Translations under genes and position numbers: made by a program | Origin: Sphingomonas bacterium | GTDB taxonomy: Bacteria > Pseudomonadota > Alphaproteobacteria > Sphingomonadales > Sphingomonadaceae | NCBI GenBank assembly: GCA_028289965.1 | Contig: JAQGKS010000052.1 | Span: forward strand, 1 to 64,000 | Reading direction: 5' to 3' | Length of the DNA: 64,000 nucleotides | Notes under the pieces: generated by a model | Told to the model about the DNA's origin: nothing | Database searches by the model: none | The model's input: only the letters and a program-made list of their open reading frames with translations | In this document: positions 21,700 through 55,859 of the stretch, one piece after another | How positions within the stretch are numbered: position 1 is the stretch's first letter | How the letters are laid out: each line of letters starts with the position of its first letter

Positions 21700-22782
21700 C
21701 TATAGAAGGTCGGCGTAATGAGCACGCGCGACGTCCGGATGCGACCGCAACCTTGCCTTGAGGTGGTTGGCGCCGACGCCGCGCAGCAGCGGGTTCTCGG
21801 GGTCCGTGCTCACGCCGCGCTCCGCCCGCTTCAACTCGGGAAGCAGCTGGATCAGCGGAACGACGCCTTCGTGCGCAGCGCCGAGGAAGAAGGGGATCGA
21901 GAAGCGCTCCATCCCGAGCGGCGGCGCGGTTGCGGCATGGACGTCGGCACGCACGAAGCCGTTGGTCGCCAGTTCGAGCAGCTCACCCGTATTCACGACG
22001 AAGGTGCCGGGAATTGGCGGTGCATCGACCCAGCTGCCGTCCTGATTCTGCACGCTCAGCCCCGGCAGCTCGTCCTGCAGCAAGATCGTGATCAGCCCGC
22101 CATCCTTATGGGCACCGACCCCCTGCTTGCACTGCGAAGAGTCGCGCCCCGGGTAGCGGAGGATCTTCAGGTGCTGGCGCGGCTGCGGCTGCAGCATCGG
22201 TGCGAACACCTCCTCATCCTCACCGAGGGCGACAGCCACCGCCTTGAGAACGTCGAGCCCGACGCGCGTCACCTCCGCCTGATAGCGCAGGATCGTCGCC
22301 TTCAGCTCGGGCAGAGCAGAGGGCCACTGGTTGGGGCCGATCGTGCGCTTCCACGCCGGATCGCCCGCCGCGATCGCCGGCGCCTCTTCTTCGCAGTCGA
22401 AATCGACCTGCTCGCGCCAGTCCGGCCGCCCCTGCGTCAGCTCGGCGCCGGCGCGGGTATAGCCGCGGAACTGGGGCGATCCGATCATCGCGATTTCCAT
22501 CTTGTCGCTCTCGGGCAGCGCGAAGAAGCGCTTGGAGACCTCGAGCACCTCGGCGACGAGGGCGGGGTCCACGCCGTGGCCCGAAAGATAGAAGAAGCCA
22601 TGATCGTGGAGGATAGTGCGCAGCTCGCGTGCGACCGCGGCGCGCTCCTCGACCGAGCCCCGGAGCCGGGAGATATCGAGCGTCGGCAGGTGCGCCGGCA
22701 TTACCTGCGGCCGCAGCGACGCAGCCTCATGCTCGGATGCGGCGTCGAACGGCTCGGTGATCGAGAAAGCTTCCAGGTTCAT
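21700..22782 (-). CDS. Isopenicillin-N-synthase-like 2-oxoglutarate/Fe(II) oxygenase
   Basis: The 360-residue protein (ATG 22782) has an N-terminal DIOX_N region (LPTLDISRLRGSVEERAAVA) and a C-terminal jelly roll with the iron motif HKD in GVGAHKDGGLITILLQD, a distal His in RADVHAA and an Arg in MERFSIPFFLG. These fit the His-x-Asp...His facial triad plus 2-oxoglutarate-binding RxS of the family, which hydroxylates or desaturates small molecules. It stands alone and ends at a strong terminator. The substrate is not evident. Confidence 0.88.
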   Translation of the reverse strand: MNLEAFSITEPFDAASEHEAASLRPQVMPAHLPTLDISRLRGSVEERAAVARELRTILHDHGFFYLSGHGVDPALVAEVLEVSKRFFALPESDKMEIAMIGSPQFRGYTRAGAELTQGRPDWREQVDFDCEEEAPAIAAGDPAWKRTIGPNQWPSALPELKATILRYQAEVTRVGLDVLKAVAVALGEDEEVFAPMLQPQPRQHLKILRYPGRDSSQCKQGVGAHKDGGLITILLQDELPGLSVQNQDGSWVDAPPIPGTFVVNTGELLELATNGFVRADVHAATAPPLGMERFSIPFFLGAAHEGVVPLIQLLPELKRAERGVSTDPENPLLRGVGANHLKARLRSHPDVARAHYADLL

Positions 22783-23321
22783 GGCTCTCAAATCCTCAAC
22801 CTTGATGTTGTTCTGAGATGCGGCGCCAACTCTTCGGCACAGTCGTCACACCCTTTCCCTGCCTAATGGGGTGCGCAGAGGTGGCCGGTAAACCACATTC
22901 GTTCCCACAGAGATTAGTGGGAGGCCGCCCATTGGAGATGAAAACAGGTAAAGAACTGCGAATCTCTACAGTAGACCGGAGTGCTGTGGACTTTCCGCTC
23001 TACTCGTCTGTCACAACTGCCCTGCGGCGGCGGGAACATTGCTTTAATGTCAGGAGGCAGCCTGCGCTCACCAGCGACGCCACCGTGGCACCGGTTCAAT
23101 CTTGGTCTTTATTATTGGCCAAAGCAGCGCAACGGCTTTGCAATGTCGGTTTTTCGAGGCGAGCAATCCACGACGAGCAGCGACCGTGCAATGGGGCGCG
23201 GCCCACCGCTGGTGGGACCCAATGTGGTATAATTCGCCCGCCGCCACATCGATAACGCGCCCAGCGCCGCACCAGCTATTCATCTCGGTAGCGGCGACTC
23301 CGTAACAGCGGTGAGGATGTC
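22783..23321. other. Divergent upstream region, no gene recognised
   Basis: This 540-bp gap separates the 2OG oxygenase (minus) from the methyltransferase-like gene (plus). It is less GC-rich than its neighbours around 22890-23000 and 23100-23240. Frames such as 22818-23255 have no domain. It probably carries two promoters and possibly old insertion debris. Confidence 0.35.
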
Positions 23322-24539
23322 ATGAAAAGAGCAGAACAAGAATCGTCCGACGGCGCCCCGGCCGCATTGGCCCCTACCGCAAATATTCCGGCAACGCTGC
23401 CGGAGCACCCGCCCGAGCAGGACTTCCGGTTCTACGACAACCGGCAGAAATATCTGATGTTCGTCAACACCTGCTCCGAAAAGTGGATCGTGGCCGATCG
23501 CTGCGCCCGAGAACTGGACTTTATTCGCCCGGAGCAGCCGGCAATCCGCTTCTTCGATGCCGGCGTCGGCGACGGCACGGTGCTGGCGCGCGTGCTTCGC
23601 ACCATGCACCGCAAGTTCGAGCGCTATCCATTCTATGTGGCGTGCAAGGAAATCAGCCTCGAGGACGTGCGGCTGACGCTCGACAAGCTTCCCGATCGGT
23701 TCCTCGAGCATCCCGAGATGGTGATCGCAATCACCAACATCGCTTATGCCGAGGCACCCTGGCTGACGCCCGCCAACCCCGAGGCGCGCAAGCGGCTGGT
23801 GTGGAAGGAAGTCGCGCTCTCCGGCTCAACCACGGCCGAATTCGAGCAGCAGATCATCGACCTACAGCCCTTCCTGGCCGAAAACTGGCGCACCAAGGTC
23901 AGCGAGAAGACCGGGAGCATGTTGCCCGAAACGCCCGCCGTGTTGGTCCTCTACCGCCAGGACTGCCAGTTCCTCCTCGATCGGGTGATCCCGCGCCAGG
24001 ACGAGCCGCGCGCCGACTTCGACCTGATCCTCGCCAGCCAGCCGTTCCGGCTCCGCGCCAAGGTCGAGTTCAAGGCCAGGCGCGTGCTCGCTCCGCTGGC
24101 GCGTGCCCTTCGCCACGGCGGACGACTGCTCGGCATCCACTCCGCCGGCAACGATCCGGGTCTTGAGATCGTGCAGAAGGTCTGGCCCGGCGAGGACCCG
24201 TTCACCACGTCGCGTCGGCAACTGATCGAGGCGACCCGTGACGCACTTGGCGAGGAGGCGAAGCAGTTCAAGTTTGATCCCCTGCCCAACGCCCAGGCGC
24301 TGTTCCGCTACGAAATGCACACCTTGCCCGACGAGATCGACAGCGAAAGCGCGTCGATCGGCACCTCGACTTTGCTCGCGGCCTGGAACGCCGCGACCTA
24401 TGTTGCGCAGATCGAGGATGAGCGCCTCGCCGAGGCGATGAGCAACTCGACCTATCTGGACGCCACACGCGCGGTGTTGCGCAAAAATGGCGAGCTCTGG
24501 TTCAACGACGAAAGCTATCTGATCTCGCGCCTGCGCTGA
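23322..24539 (+). CDS. Methyltransferase-like protein of unknown function (paralogue of the 53.3-kb gene)
   Basis: The 405-residue protein contains a class-I SAM-methyltransferase-like glycine motif, RFFDAGVGDGTVLARVLR (about residues 70-87), preceded by DFRFYDNRQKYLMFVNT and SEKWIVADR. Conserved late blocks are STLLAAWNAATYVAQIED and LWFNDESYLISR. The gene at 53.3 kb encodes a protein with all of these blocks in the same order plus an N-terminal HTH-like domain that this one lacks. I do not recognise a named family. It is followed convergently by an aldo/keto reductase, while its paralogue is operonic with an alcohol dehydrogenase. Confidence 0.7.
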   Translation: MKRAEQESSDGAPAALAPTANIPATLPEHPPEQDFRFYDNRQKYLMFVNTCSEKWIVADRCARELDFIRPEQPAIRFFDAGVGDGTVLARVLRTMHRKFERYPFYVACKEISLEDVRLTLDKLPDRFLEHPEMVIAITNIAYAEAPWLTPANPEARKRLVWKEVALSGSTTAEFEQQIIDLQPFLAENWRTKVSEKTGSMLPETPAVLVLYRQDCQFLLDRVIPRQDEPRADFDLILASQPFRLRAKVEFKARRVLAPLARALRHGGRLLGIHSAGNDPGLEIVQKVWPGEDPFTTSRRQLIEATRDALGEEAKQFKFDPLPNAQALFRYEMHTLPDEIDSESASIGTSTLLAAWNAATYVAQIEDERLAEAMSNSTYLDATRAVLRKNGELWFNDESYLISRLR

Positions 24540-25757: not shown

Positions 25758-25914
25758 TTGTGCCTAGCATGACACGCGGCGGATGCCCGAGCTTTTCAGG
25801 ACTACTCCCGCCGCGCCAGCACGGCGTGGCGTTTTGTCCAGCGCTGGGCAGGCCCGCCCGGCCGCTTGCCGCCGGCGACAGAGGCGTCCTGAACATGCAT
25901 TCTTCTATTGCAGA

Positions 25915-51433: not shown

Positions 51434-52288
51434 ATGGACATTGCGGTAATTGGCGTAGGGGCAATGGGATCGGCGATCGGCGCGCTGCTGGCAGAAAGCG
51501 GCGCGCGCGTGCTGTCGCCGCTCGCCGGACGCAGCGAGCAAAGCCGCAGGCGCGCCGCCGCCGCCGGCATCCGCGATGCGACCCCGGCCGAAATCGCCGG
51601 CTGCCCAATGATTCTTTCGGTGGTGCCGCCGACGCAGGCACCCCAAGTCGCTGTCGCGGTAATGGAGGCTGTGGTGGCGCGTGGCGCGCAGCCAATGTTC
51701 GCCGACTGCAACGCGATCGATCCCGACACGGCACGGGGGATCGGCGAGATGATCGAGCGATCCGGCTGCCGCTTCGTCGATGCCGCGATCCTCGGCGGAC
51801 CGCCCGCCGCCGGCCGAGCACGCCGCCCGCTCTTCTACGCGGCGGGCCGGCATGCGGAGGAGTTTGCAAAGCTCACCGCGTTCGGACTCGACGTCCGTGC
51901 CCTTCCCGCACCGATCGGCGCCGCCTCCGCGCTCAAGATGAGCCTGGCTGCGGTGTCCAAGGGGATGACCGGAGTCCTCGCGCTCGCGCTCCAGCTCGCC
52001 GAGCAAGAGCAGGTCTGCGACTTCTTCGTCGAGCAATTGCGGCAATCGCAGCCGGGGCTCGCCGGCTGGGGCGCCAGCCAGTTTCCCCAACTGGCGGCGA
52101 AGGCGGCGCGATGGGCCGAGGAGATGACGATCCTCGAGCAATTGCTCGCCTCCTCCCCGGGCGGTTCGCAATGCTTCCGCGGTCTTGCCGACATGTTCGC
52201 CGCAGCGCCGCAGGTGCCGGGCGACGATCAGGCGCGGCGCTGGGCTGGGGCGCTGCTGCGCGAACCCGGCCATGACGCGGCCGCCTAG
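51434..52288 (+). CDS. NAD(P)-dependent beta-hydroxyacid dehydrogenase-like, DUF1932-type C-terminus
   Basis: ATG 51434 lies 6 nt after GCAGGAGG. The 284-residue protein has AVIGVGAMGSAIGALLAESG (NAD loop), FADCNAIDPDTARGIGEMIE and AAILGGPPAAG in place of the usual DAPVSGG. A C-terminal all-helical segment from about residue 185 resembles DUF1932 6-phosphogluconate-dehydrogenase-like domains, with a Lys in SALKMSLAAVSKGMTG. It probably oxidises a hydroxy acid. Its end overlaps the convergent GntR gene by 4 nt. Confidence 0.83.
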   Translation: MDIAVIGVGAMGSAIGALLAESGARVLSPLAGRSEQSRRRAAAAGIRDATPAEIAGCPMILSVVPPTQAPQVAVAVMEAVVARGAQPMFADCNAIDPDTARGIGEMIERSGCRFVDAAILGGPPAAGRARRPLFYAAGRHAEEFAKLTAFGLDVRALPAPIGAASALKMSLAAVSKGMTGVLALALQLAEQEQVCDFFVEQLRQSQPGLAGWGASQFPQLAAKAARWAEEMTILEQLLASSPGGSQCFRGLADMFAAAPQVPGDDQARRWAGALLREPGHDAAA

Positions 52289-52935
52289 GCGGCCGCGTCG
52301 ACGTTGAATGCCTGCTCCAGCGCCGATTCGACCCGCTGCCGCGCGGCGAGATATTCGGAGATCAGGCGATCGCGGTCGCGCGCCTCCAGCGCATCGACCA
52401 GCTTGCGCTCGGGGCTCGCCTCGGTGCTGCGCGGAAACATCGAGCGATAACGGTCGGTCAGCGTCCACAGCCGGCGCGCCTCGTGCAGCAGCACCTTTTG
52501 CGGTGAGAGGCTGAAAATCTCGAGCCGCAACTGGCCCAGCATTTCGGACCATTGGGCGAAGTCGCGATGCTGGTTGAGCTGGTCGAGCGCGTCGAACCGC
52601 GGACGCATGCCCTTGACCCACTCGGCGGACGGCCATTCGGCCGTCTCCAGAAGCTTCACCTCCAGCCAGCGGCGCAGACCGTAGAGCTGCAGCGCCTCGG
52701 AATAGTCGAGCGCGGGAACGAAATAACCGCGATTGCGGTCATGCCGGAGAAACCCCTCGGTCGCGAGCAGCTTCAATGCTTCGCGGATCGGGACCTTGCT
52801 GCGGCCGAACTGCTTGGCGAGCTGGGTCTGGCCGAGATGCTCTCCCGGCAGCAATGTTCCCCGGACGATCAACCGGCGCAGTTCATCGGCAACCACGGTT
52901 GGAAGTGAATCGTCCGTAAGTTCGGAGGTGTTCAT
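52285..52935 (-). CDS. GntR-family regulator, FCD type, second copy
   Basis: The 216-residue protein has a GntR winged helix (LRRLIVRGTLLPGEHLGQTQ and RSKVPIREALKLLATEG) closely resembling the 43.6-kb regulator, and a C-terminal helical domain of the same plan (RRLWTLTDRYRSMFP). Where the first regulator has EHKEFH and SKHSLL, this one has LGQLRLE and SPERKLV, so the His residues typical of metal-binding FCD domains are missing. It may sense a ligand without metal or have lost ligand response. No operator of the island type was seen upstream. Confidence 0.87.
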   Translation of the reverse strand: MNTSELTDDSLPTVVADELRRLIVRGTLLPGEHLGQTQLAKQFGRSKVPIREALKLLATEGFLRHDRNRGYFVPALDYSEALQLYGLRRWLEVKLLETAEWPSAEWVKGMRPRFDALDQLNQHRDFAQWSEMLGQLRLEIFSLSPQKVLLHEARRLWTLTDRYRSMFPRSTEASPERKLVDALEARDRDRLISEYLAARQRVESALEQAFNVDAAA

Positions 52936-53025: not shown

Positions 53026-53277
53026 TCACGATGCCGACGCCGGCGCCAGGTAGAGCGCACGGCCGCACGCTGCGCAGCAAATGTCGCTGACGGGAACGCT
53101 CACAGCGGGGCTCGGCCCGTGCTGCGCGCTATCGCCGGTGTCGCCGGTGTCGGGGCAGCAAGCGCAGGATCCCCGGACGGTGTGGCTATCATACTGCTCG
53201 AGCATCCCGTCGGTCCAGTCCGCGCGGCAGAAAGGACAGGTCGGGCGCTCCGTCCGGCGCCGTTGGTTCGTGGTCAT
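53026..53277 (-). CDS. Small Cys-rich zinc-ribbon-like protein
   Basis: ATG 53277 overlaps the preceding stop (ATGA), which fixes the start. The 83-residue product has PTCPFCRADWTDGMLEQYD, GSCACCPDTGD and VSDICCAACGRALYL, that is CxxC, CxCC and CCxxC clusters suitable for one or two zinc sites. Small proteins of this sort often serve as metal donors or adaptor subunits. It is the last gene of a coupled operon with an alcohol dehydrogenase and a methyltransferase-like protein. I recognise no named family. Confidence 0.7.
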   Translation of the reverse strand: MTTNQRRRTERPTCPFCRADWTDGMLEQYDSHTVRGSCACCPDTGDTGDSAQHGPSPAVSVPVSDICCAACGRALYLAPASAS

Positions 53278-54683
53278 GGATTTTCCTCGGTATGGCTGGG
53301 GCGCGCGCCGCCTGACATCACCTGGTGGAGATCGGCGGGGCGGGAAATAAGGAAGGCTTCGTCGTTGAACCACAGGCCGCCATGGCGGCGCAGCGTCTCG
53401 CGGGTGACTTCGAGGTAGCGGTCGTGATCCATCACGGTGGCGAGCCGGGCATCCTCGATCTGCGCGACATAGCTCGCCGCGTTCCACGCCGCGATCAGCG
53501 TGGACGAGCCGATCTCGGCCTTCGGATCGACTTCCGACTGCAGGGTGTGGATGCGGAAGCGGAACAAGGCCTCGTCGTTCGACGCCTCATGGAAGTGGTA
53601 GCGGCGCGCATCGGCGCCGAGCGCCGTCGCCACCTCGCGCATCAGCGCCTCCCGGCCATGAACGAACGGCTCTTCGCTCGGCCAGATTTCGCGTATGATC
53701 TCCATGCCCGGATCATGGCCGTACGCCTGGACACCCATCAGCCGGCCGTTGCGCCGCAGCGCGCGGACCAGCGGCGCGACGATCGTCGTCGCCTTGAATG
53801 CGATCGGCGACCGCGCGCGATAGGCATGGGACAGCACGGCAAGGTCGAAGTCGGCGCGCGCCGCGCCGCGCCGCGGCAGGATCGAATCGAGCACGAAGCG
53901 CTGATCCCGGCGGTAGAGCACCAGCACCGCGGGCGTGCGCGGCAGCGGGTGCCCGCTGCCGGGGCTGATCTCGACCTGCCAATTACGCTCAACGAACGAC
54001 TGCAGCCCGGCGATCGCTTCCTCGAAGTCGCCGGCCTTGTCGCCGGTCAGCCCCACCTCCTCCCACACCATCGCGCTGGCGGCGACGGGCGAGCCCGGCA
54101 TGAGCCACGGCGCGTGGGCATAATTGAGGTTGGTGACGACCAGCACTGTTGCGGGGTGCTCCTGGAAGCGATCGGGCATCCGCTCGAGCATCAGGCGGAC
54201 ATTTTCCGCACTGATCTCCTTGGCCACGACATAGAGCGGCAGCCACGGATAGCGGCGGTGGACCCCGCGCAGCAGCCGCGCGAGCACGGTGCCGTCGCCC
54301 GATCCGCCGTCGAACAGGCGCAATGCGGGCGGCTCGGGCTGGGCAAAGGTCAGTTGCTCGAGCGCCCGGTCGGCGACGATCTGCTTTTCCGACGACGTAT
54401 TGACGAACATCAGATATTTCTGGCGATTGTCGTAGAAGCGGAAATTATGCGCCGGGCTGAGGGCCGACGCATCGTTCACCGCCGATCGCAACGAAGGGCC
54501 GCCCTGGCTTTCGATGAAGCGATGCACCCGCTCGACCGTCTGGAGCGTGACGCGGCCGCCCTGTTGCAGCCGGTTGACGAACTTGCCGTCGTTCACCGCC
54601 TGCCGGCCGAAGGTCGACTGGGCGATCTTGAGCCGGCGGCACGCCTCCTCAATCTGTGCGAGCAAGACCTCGCCGTCGGTCAC
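53274..54683 (-). CDS. HTH-like plus methyltransferase-like protein of unknown function
   Basis: GTG 54683 overlaps the ADH stop (GTGA). Frames upstream are antisense to the ADH gene. The 469-residue protein begins with a small helix-turn-helix-like domain (residues about 5-65, EVLLAQIEEACRRLKIAQST, GRVTLQTVERVHRFIE). The paralogous core of the 23.3-kb protein follows: FRFYDNRQKYLMFVNTSSEK, LRLFDGGSGDGTVLARLLR, STLIAAWNAASYVAQIED and LWFNDEAFLISR. A SAM-type glycine motif is plain, but the rest is not a family I can name. Coupling to ADH and a zinc ribbon suggests a dedicated complex. Confidence 0.7.
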   Translation of the reverse strand: MTDGEVLLAQIEEACRRLKIAQSTFGRQAVNDGKFVNRLQQGGRVTLQTVERVHRFIESQGGPSLRSAVNDASALSPAHNFRFYDNRQKYLMFVNTSSEKQIVADRALEQLTFAQPEPPALRLFDGGSGDGTVLARLLRGVHRRYPWLPLYVVAKEISAENVRLMLERMPDRFQEHPATVLVVTNLNYAHAPWLMPGSPVAASAMVWEEVGLTGDKAGDFEEAIAGLQSFVERNWQVEISPGSGHPLPRTPAVLVLYRRDQRFVLDSILPRRGAARADFDLAVLSHAYRARSPIAFKATTIVAPLVRALRRNGRLMGVQAYGHDPGMEIIREIWPSEEPFVHGREALMREVATALGADARRYHFHEASNDEALFRFRIHTLQSEVDPKAEIGSSTLIAAWNAASYVAQIEDARLATVMDHDRYLEVTRETLRRHGGLWFNDEAFLISRPADLHQVMSGGARPSHTEENP

Positions 54684-55789
54684 GCGACCTTCCCTGGACT
54701 GACCGTGATGTGGATCGCATCCGCAATCCCGCGCCCCGCGGTCGCGAGGATCGCCTCGTGCACCTGATCGAGGCCGAAATCGTGGCTGCACAGCTTGTCG
54801 ATCGGCCAGCGGCGCGATGCGACAAGATCGAGGGCGGCCTGAACGGCGCGGTAGCTGTGCCCGCGCGGCGCGCGCACCGTGAGGTAGCGCTTCTTGATCT
54901 CGTTGATCGGCACCGATGCGCCAAGGCCGTTGAGGCTGAGCCAGGCGCCCTTTGCCGAAAGCGCGATCGCCTGCTCGGCGATGCGGCCATCGGGGTCGCC
55001 GGTCGTGTCGACGACCACGTCGACCCCTTTCCCGCCGGTCACGTCCATCACCACCCGCGCCAGATCCTCGGCTTCGACATCGACGGCAATGTCCGCGCCG
55101 AGCTCGCGCGACAGATCGAGCCGCGCGCGATCGCGGCCCATCCCGGCGAGGATCACCGTCGCCGCACCGGCCGCCTTCGCCGCCAGCGCGCAGCCCAGCC
55201 CCTGCTGGCCGGGCCCGAAAACCAGCACCGTCTTGCCCATGCCGGCGCCGCCATCGAGCACCGCCCATTGCACGCCATTGCCCAGGGGGACCGCCAGCGT
55301 CGCGTGCCGCGCATCCATGTCGCCCGGGATCTTGTGGACCACGGCGTTGGGCGCGAGATACATGAATTCGGCATTACCGCCCCAAAGATGCGGCGCGATC
55401 TCGGCATTGCAGGTGCCGTAGCGGAGCGTGTTGAAGCGATCCTCCACGTTGAAGAAGTCGGCCTCCATGCACAGTCGGAAATCCCCTTGCAGGCACCAGT
55501 GGCAATGCCAGCATGGTAGATATTCATGGAGCGCGATGCGGTCGCCCGGTCGCACGCCCCAGCGACGCGCCGCCGCATCGCCGATCCGCTCGACCGTGCC
55601 GACCACTTCATGCCCCATGATGCAGGGTGCGGTGTTCGCGCGGCGATACATTTCCGGATCGCTGCCGCCGACGCCCGAGGATTCGACCCGCAGCAGGCCG
55701 TCGTCCGAACCGACCGGAGGCAGCGCGAACTCGCGGATTTCGGTCTTCTCGACAGCGATCTTGACTGCTGCGCGTGCGACTTCGGCCAT
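54680..55789 (-). CDS. Zinc-dependent medium-chain alcohol dehydrogenase
   Basis: The 369-residue protein has the catalytic-zinc region IMGHEVVGTVERIG, a structural-zinc lobe with four Cys in CWHCHWCLQGDFRLC, and the NAD loop VLVFGPGQQGLGCALAAKAA. It belongs to the threonine/sorbitol-dehydrogenase-like MDR group. It begins an operon (ADH - methyltransferase-like - zinc ribbon) whose genes all overlap by 3-4 nt. An operator pair lies 19 bp before its start, in the gap shared with an MFS gene. Confidence 0.92.
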   Translation of the reverse strand: MAEVARAAVKIAVEKTEIREFALPPVGSDDGLLRVESSGVGGSDPEMYRRANTAPCIMGHEVVGTVERIGDAAARRWGVRPGDRIALHEYLPCWHCHWCLQGDFRLCMEADFFNVEDRFNTLRYGTCNAEIAPHLWGGNAEFMYLAPNAVVHKIPGDMDARHATLAVPLGNGVQWAVLDGGAGMGKTVLVFGPGQQGLGCALAAKAAGAATVILAGMGRDRARLDLSRELGADIAVDVEAEDLARVVMDVTGGKGVDVVVDTTGDPDGRIAEQAIALSAKGAWLSLNGLGASVPINEIKKRYLTVRAPRGHSYRAVQAALDLVASRRWPIDKLCSHDFGLDQVHEAILATAGRGIADAIHITVSPGKVA

Positions 55790-55807
55790 CACTCTCTCGC
55801 TCTAGTA

Positions 55808-55831
55808 TCGTTAGTCACAATGGAATAACAA
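55808..55831. promoter_or_regulatory. Tandem operator between ADH operon and MFS gene
   Basis: TCGTTAGTCAC (55808-55818) and TGGAATAACAA (55821-55831), 13 bp apart, keep the outer TNGT and ACNA halves of the pair, with weaker inner halves. They lie in a 70-bp divergent gap. Confidence 0.6.
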
Positions 55832-55859
55832 TGCGCGGGGTTCAAGGGACTTTGCAAAC

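Follow-up and report, generated by a model that had tools for sequence, protein, structure and literature searches.

A candidate one-component regulator of SAM-dependent methylation genes with a predicted lambda-repressor-like head and a methyltransferase-type domain in sphingomonads and other Proteobacteria

The three-gene operon and its promoter

The window, that is, the whole stretch of 64,000 nucleotides that we analyzed, carries three minus-strand genes, which encode a zinc MDR dehydrogenase (ADH), a protein of 469 aa and a Cys-rich one of 83 aa (Table 1). The three genes are coupled by short overlaps, as the earlier note had claimed, with 4 nt shared at both the ADH/469-aa junction (GTGA) and the 469-aa/83-aa junction (ATGA). 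We confirmed the GDGTVLARLLR motif in the 469-aa protein and the CxxC, CxCC and CCxxC clusters in the 83-aa protein. These two genes are real, because both have conserved homologues.

The identity of the ADH is supported by two Pfam domains, ADH_N and ADH_zinc_N, both above cut-off, and no NCBIfam equivalog passes its cut-off for this protein. Among all loci, an ADH gene adjoins the long form of the 469-aa family elsewhere only in Sphingomonas canadensis (L006, 83% identity). In other relatives this position is taken by an amidohydrolase, a flavin reductase, an MFS transporter or nothing. In the neighbourhoods surveyed, the conserved associates of the family are SAM-cycle genes, not the ADH. 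The ADH is a chance operon neighbour and not a conserved partner of the 469-aa protein. Just past the window end, near a MetE-like gene, there is another ADH gene of this type (51% identical; L087:2143-3255; contig C148 near 64190-65155).

The claim that the operon carries the operator of the surrounding island holds in outline. Three intergenic regions of the window contain the 10-mer GACTAACGAT (29556, 42211 and 55793). Allowing one mismatch or fewer, we counted 21 copies of the dyad WTYGTNNNACRAW in the window versus 9.5 +/- 3.2 expected, a number that 0 of 100 shuffles reached. Upstream of the ADH gene, the copy takes the form of a degenerate tandem pair. We take this dyad to resemble GntR/FCD operators; there are two FCD-type GntR genes in the window. 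The 13-bp dyad ATYGT-N3-ACRAT is found island-wide, at 25914, 29556, 40520, 42238, 44385, 48201, 55807, 62498 and 63402, and its copies often stand as two head-to-tail, directly abutting, ahead of catabolic genes.

Table 1. Features of the window discussed in the text
Feature	Position	Strand	Remarks
2OG-Fe(II) oxygenase gene	21700-22782	-	second proposed target; divergent from the short gene
Composite operator, oxygenase promoter	22888-22931	-	
Composite operator, short-methyltransferase promoter	23192-23232	+	TGGG-N6-CCCA plus third half-site
Headless paralogue (short form)	23322-24539	+	405 aa; proposed working methyltransferase and regulator target
FCD-type GntR regulator gene	52285-52935	-	just downstream of the operon; adjoins the operon in S. 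canadensis (L006) too
83-aa Cys-rich, zinc-ribbon-like protein	53026-53277	-	ATG start; conserved alongside the long forms of sphingomonads
469-aa HTH-methyltransferase protein (long form)	53274-54683	-	GTG start; proposed regulator
Class I SAM-methyltransferase-type domain, residues 80-450	53334-54446	-	predicted from AlphaFold2 model and structure matches
Lambda-repressor-like HTH head, residues 1-65	54489-54683	-	predicted from AlphaFold2 model, fold matches and conserved alignment
Zinc MDR dehydrogenase (ADH) gene	54680-55789	-	369 aa; ATG start
Degenerate tandem pair of 13-bp GntR/FCD-like island operator	55807-55832		upstream of the ADH operon

Predicted fold, family and gene neighbourhoods

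The 469-aa protein matches no Pfam or NCBIfam family, in agreement with the view that it belongs to an unnamed one. A 39-row profile of its family found no sequence relative in the PDB, and the PDB matches of the single sequence look unrelated and were rejected. The AlphaFold2 model built with 39 relatives has a pLDDT of 85.5 over the whole protein, and both the HTH-like head and the SAM-type domain that had been read from the sequence reappear in the predicted fold and its structure matches. The structure matches of residues 80-450 are small-molecule methyltransferases of class I at about 10% identity, namely histamine N-methyltransferase (Z 17.9, rmsd 4.0, 265 residues), a mycobacterial fatty acid O-methyltransferase and SABATH/theobromine enzymes. 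An alignment of 83 sequences shows conservation of the motif I residues D125, G127, G129, D130 and E156. The modelled Rossmann-like fold, the glycine-rich motif I and an acidic residue behind the second strand together place this region among the predicted class I SAM-methyltransferase domains.

Modelled in isolation from 22 rows, the head forms four helices with a pLDDT of 90.3. Its top matches are for the most part DNA-binding domains of the lambda-repressor type, such as those of HipB, ClgR, POU and the controller proteins of restriction-modification systems; the enzyme HppE is also found among the matches. The best Z-score is 7.1 and no Foldseek E-value is below 0.001; since all Z-scores are below 8, it is the agreement among the matches, not any single score, that supports the lambda-repressor-like assignment. 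Pfam finds no HTH in the 469-aa protein, and no Pfam family covers the head, which from its model looks like a lambda-repressor-like HTH. Many sphingomonads also encode the head by itself, in mini-proteins of about 65-115 aa (loci L071-L086), and in G172 a related head lies in frame with an aspartate/ornithine carbamoyltransferase in a 427-aa open frame (L193:604-1884, G172:C2).

We sampled the family from 51 loci in GTDB genomes together with matches in the window's family, order and class, which yielded about 80 relatives from Alpha- and Gammaproteobacteria with two architectures, long (headed) and short (headless). The family-level scan gave 69 positive genomes, most of them head-only, and a methyltransferase domain in 15. 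In a maximum-likelihood tree, headed rows are found in both Gamma- and Alphaproteobacteria, and the Sphingomonadaceae form two deep clades, one headed (22 rows) and one headless (14 rows, support 100/100); rows L142 and L051 are headed and carry the label short in this tree owing to a pattern failure and a frame break, so that the count of changes is slightly too high. The short form is present in all seven sphingomonad genomes with the long form. The headed sphingomonad clade uniformly carries three substitutions near the SAM site (A126G, D161N and A284L); they would fit a shift towards sensing and prove nothing.

A SAM-cycle or one-carbon gene lies within 6 kb of 49 of the 76 dereplicated family genes and is directly adjacent to 40 of them. 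The neighbours found are metF, metK, sahH, adenosine kinase, metE-like genes and fhs, and in three gammaproteobacterial genomes (L030, L031 and L056) they form the run methyltransferase-metF-metK-adoK-sahH-fhs, which is close to a full supply-and-recycling line for SAM-dependent methylation. In most non-sphingomonad lineages, the copy beside metF is the headed one. The neighbouring MTHFR is divergent, with 7xg9 as the nearest PDB sequence, and the adenosine kinases fall into two subfamilies, the sphingomonad type matching 3ubo at 341 bits and the gammaproteobacterial type being different. The metF and fhs neighbours suggested a THF-dependent demethylase, which we rejected because SahH, MetK and adenosine kinase fit a SAM-spending route and the fold is of SAM type. 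A plasmid-borne family was rejected as well, as no match was found in PLSDB. Literature searches on this gene set found nothing specific.

Two further arrangements were observed in sphingomonads. In several short-only genomes the methyltransferase gene stands beside a pair of IscS-like cysteine desulfurase genes (L097:6437-9340, L165:3783-5970), and around the long form a catabolic cluster is conserved (L016:1-13368, L017-L022, L161). The L016-type cluster comprises two luciferase-like monooxygenases, a flavin reductase, RibBA, hydrolases, an amidohydrolase, a lactonase and an adenosine kinase.

The headless paralogue, its proposed operator and the probable Cys-rich partner

The window contains a second member of the family, which the earlier note had overlooked together with a second operator that links both genes. 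This short form is 53% identical to the 469-aa protein and is devoid of the N-terminal head. The intergenic region between it and the divergent oxygenase gene (22783-23321) holds one composite element per promoter, in which the palindrome TGGG-N6-CCCA is usually followed by a third half-site beside GTGGTTTAC/TTGAC, which is probably the -35 box. The palindrome recurs in upstream regions, often followed by GTGGGACCGATTGTGGTTTAC. The sole strict palindrome in the whole window genome is located at 22917, in the element of the oxygenase promoter; in G161, the oxygenase homologue is located elsewhere and the composite element is kept. The operon of the 469-aa gene itself has no TGGG-N6-CCCA site, so control in this genome would be in trans only.

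We noticed the palindrome by eye, and some of the loci on which it was then tested are those from which it had been read. It stands upstream of 18 of 79 family genes versus 10 of 904 other genes at the family loci (p = 2e-14); the background is 0.008 per 300 bp. An exact copy precedes 12 of the 17 non-sphingomonad long genes, as well as the short gene in the window genome, G155, G174, G161, G077, G195, G414 and G270; in G414 the start of the short gene was called too early and the site therefore falls inside the called ORF. None was found upstream of the short genes (0) in lineages without a detected long form. The long form was detected in seven of the eight sphingomonad genomes with the site, the exception being G270, which is 78% complete. 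A whole-genome search found the composite element in 8/8 sphingomonad site genomes and in 0/8 genomes without the long form, five of which have the short form, and the reversed control was never found. In G866, G691, G871 and G873, the sole perfect 16-bp site in 3.0-6.4 Mb is that of the long gene's promoter. No exact site was found at L053, which has both forms, and no exact palindrome at L027, L141 or L142. Two pattern matches near dksA in G414 and G155 are without the palindrome and were discarded.

As the pattern was read off some of the same genomes, its presence there is partly by construction; what is informative is that the site is unique, that short-only genomes do not have it and that the oxygenase gene does. 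The site follows the head, either in cis, where the headed gene stands with SAM-cycle genes, or in trans, at a separate headless paralogue, which favours the head as the DNA reader. The GntR-type operator of the island was rejected as the site of the 469-aa protein, since the dyad ATYGT-N3-ACRAT is unlike TGGG-N6-CCCA. In G138, where no long form was detected, the short-gene promoter (L164 upstream of 2675) has ACAATCGTTATACAAAG, which is like the GntR island operator, in place of TGGG-N6-CCCA.

Cys-rich homologues lie close to nearly all sphingomonad long genes, and the pairing with the 469-aa gene that had been pointed out earlier is real and conserved across sphingomonads; no homologue was found near L009, L018, L021 or L051 or in the non-sphingomonad loci. 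In an order-wide scan, strong matches fell in G000, G155, G077 and G414, exactly the genomes with the long form. CPFC and a later CxxC, which make up paired CxxC knuckles, are invariant in 10 aligned homologues, plus a CxC. Neither Pfam nor NCBIfam matches the 83-aa protein, and viral relatives were sought and none was found. We regard this protein, a putative zinc ribbon by its sequence, as a probable partner of the regulator; it cannot be the operator reader everywhere, because it was not found outside sphingomonads.

Proposed mechanism and comparison with known systems

Taken together, the computed genes, predicted fold, neighbourhoods and operator distribution lead us to propose, with a probability of roughly two in three, that the 469-aa protein is a one-component regulator with a lambda-repressor-like HTH and a class I SAM-methyltransferase domain, which controls SAM-dependent methylation genes via TGGG-N6-CCCA. 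The headed protein, probably as a dimer, would bind this site and control these genes, with a sign of regulation that, like the methylated substrate, is a matter of inference. The SAM-type effector domain and the SAM-cycle targets make SAM or SAH the likely signal. Outside sphingomonads, the headed gene mostly stands ahead of metF or related genes and would control its own expression; its product may combine the two functions of enzyme and regulator, as has been reported for ArsRM of Brevundimonas. In the Sphingomonadaceae, the family is duplicated. The working methyltransferase is likely to be the headless copy, which often stands in a run with metF/metK/sahH, and its headed counterpart is its likely regulator in trans, here also of the 2OG-Fe(II) oxygenase. 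The regulator gene would be transcribed with an unrelated ADH and the Cys-rich partner from a GntR-type promoter of the catabolic island, and growth on the island substrate would then plausibly determine how much regulator is made, and with it the level of the methylation pathway.

Part of this evidence can be read in other ways. The headed protein might be a working methyltransferase that also represses, bifunctional like ArsRM, in the window as elsewhere. The SAM motif is invariant in both forms, the headed copy is the one beside metF in most non-sphingomonad lineages, ArsRM provides a precedent, and, as the SAM-binding residues are kept in the 469-aa protein, it may still be catalytic. However, in the Sphingomonadaceae the headed copy is always accompanied by a headless copy, which is the one that has the SAM-cycle operon, and the three substitutions fixed near the SAM site also argue against this reading, which we consider rather unlikely. 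That the protein is only an enzyme, with the head as a structural or dimerisation module and another regulator reading TGGG-N6-CCCA, seems to us improbable: the site goes with the headed form from genome to genome, whether in cis or in trans, and genomes with the headless form alone do not have it. The points in its favour are the carbamoyltransferase fusion of a related head in G172 and HppE, an enzyme with a similar N-terminal domain, owing to which the head need not bind DNA. The earlier suggestion that the ADH, methyltransferase and ribbon proteins form a complex of fixed stoichiometry fits the tight 4-nt overlaps and the triplet in S. canadensis, but at about 20 further sphingomonad loci the methyltransferase and ribbon genes are paired with no ADH gene beside them, which makes such a complex very improbable.

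We return to the 469-aa protein as a regulator, probably the switch for its sister methyltransferase and the genes of its methyl supply. A wider account, to which we give even odds, is that fusion of the head to a small-molecule methyltransferase gave rise to a SAM/SAH-responsive family, at first of autoregulated enzyme-regulators, which was then split by duplication in the Sphingomonadaceae into a headless enzyme and a headed trans regulator with a Cys-rich partner, serving a dedicated methylation pathway. This looks like a clear case of an enzyme and its regulator parting ways once the gene had duplicated, the operator going with the DNA-binding head. Our analysis provides a likely function and target sites for a family unnamed by Pfam and NCBIfam, and would add to MetJ, MetR and SahR/SamR a further class of proteins that regulate the proteobacterial SAM cycle.

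Several known proteins share one part of the 469-aa protein. Histamine N-methyltransferase, SABATH enzymes and fatty acid O-methyltransferases have the fold of residues 80-450, without an HTH head and in other gene contexts, and HppE (hydroxypropylphosphonic acid epoxidase) has a similar lambda-repressor-like N-terminal domain and an unrelated catalytic domain. The proposed regulator is analogous to ArsRM and SahR, but its head is unrelated. ArsRM of Brevundimonas sp. M20 is a fusion of an ArsR-type HTH to a SAM methyltransferase, encoded ahead of metF, and is reported to bind the palindrome CTTTATATAAAG in its own promoter and to methylate arsenite (PMC10190100). It thus shows, by analogy, that an HTH-methyltransferase architecture can work as a regulator, and it shares with our family both the fusion and, in the relatives, the metF context. 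In contrast to the ArsR-type HTH, palindrome and arsenite substrate of ArsRM, the head here is predicted to be lambda-repressor-like and TGGG-N6-CCCA is the proposed site; in the 469-aa protein, Pfam detects no ArsR domain and no methyltransferase family that is already known, and the sphingomonad headed copy stands apart from its proposed target genes. SahR and SamR regulate metF, metK, ahcY and the genes for methionine synthase; SahR responds to SAH, and SamR possibly to SAM (PMC4239095). They show, again by analogy, that the SAM cycle is a usual regulatory target. Both belong to the ArsR family, whereas the head model is not ArsR-type, and their operator consensus (PMC4239095) is not matched by TGGG-N6-CCCA. 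The likeness to SahR/SamR and ArsRM lies in relatives that are encoded with SAM-cycle genes or have the site upstream of them, the proposed target in the window being the promoter of the paralogue. As its head and operator are unlike those of ArsRM and SahR/SamR, we do not place the 469-aa protein in that family.
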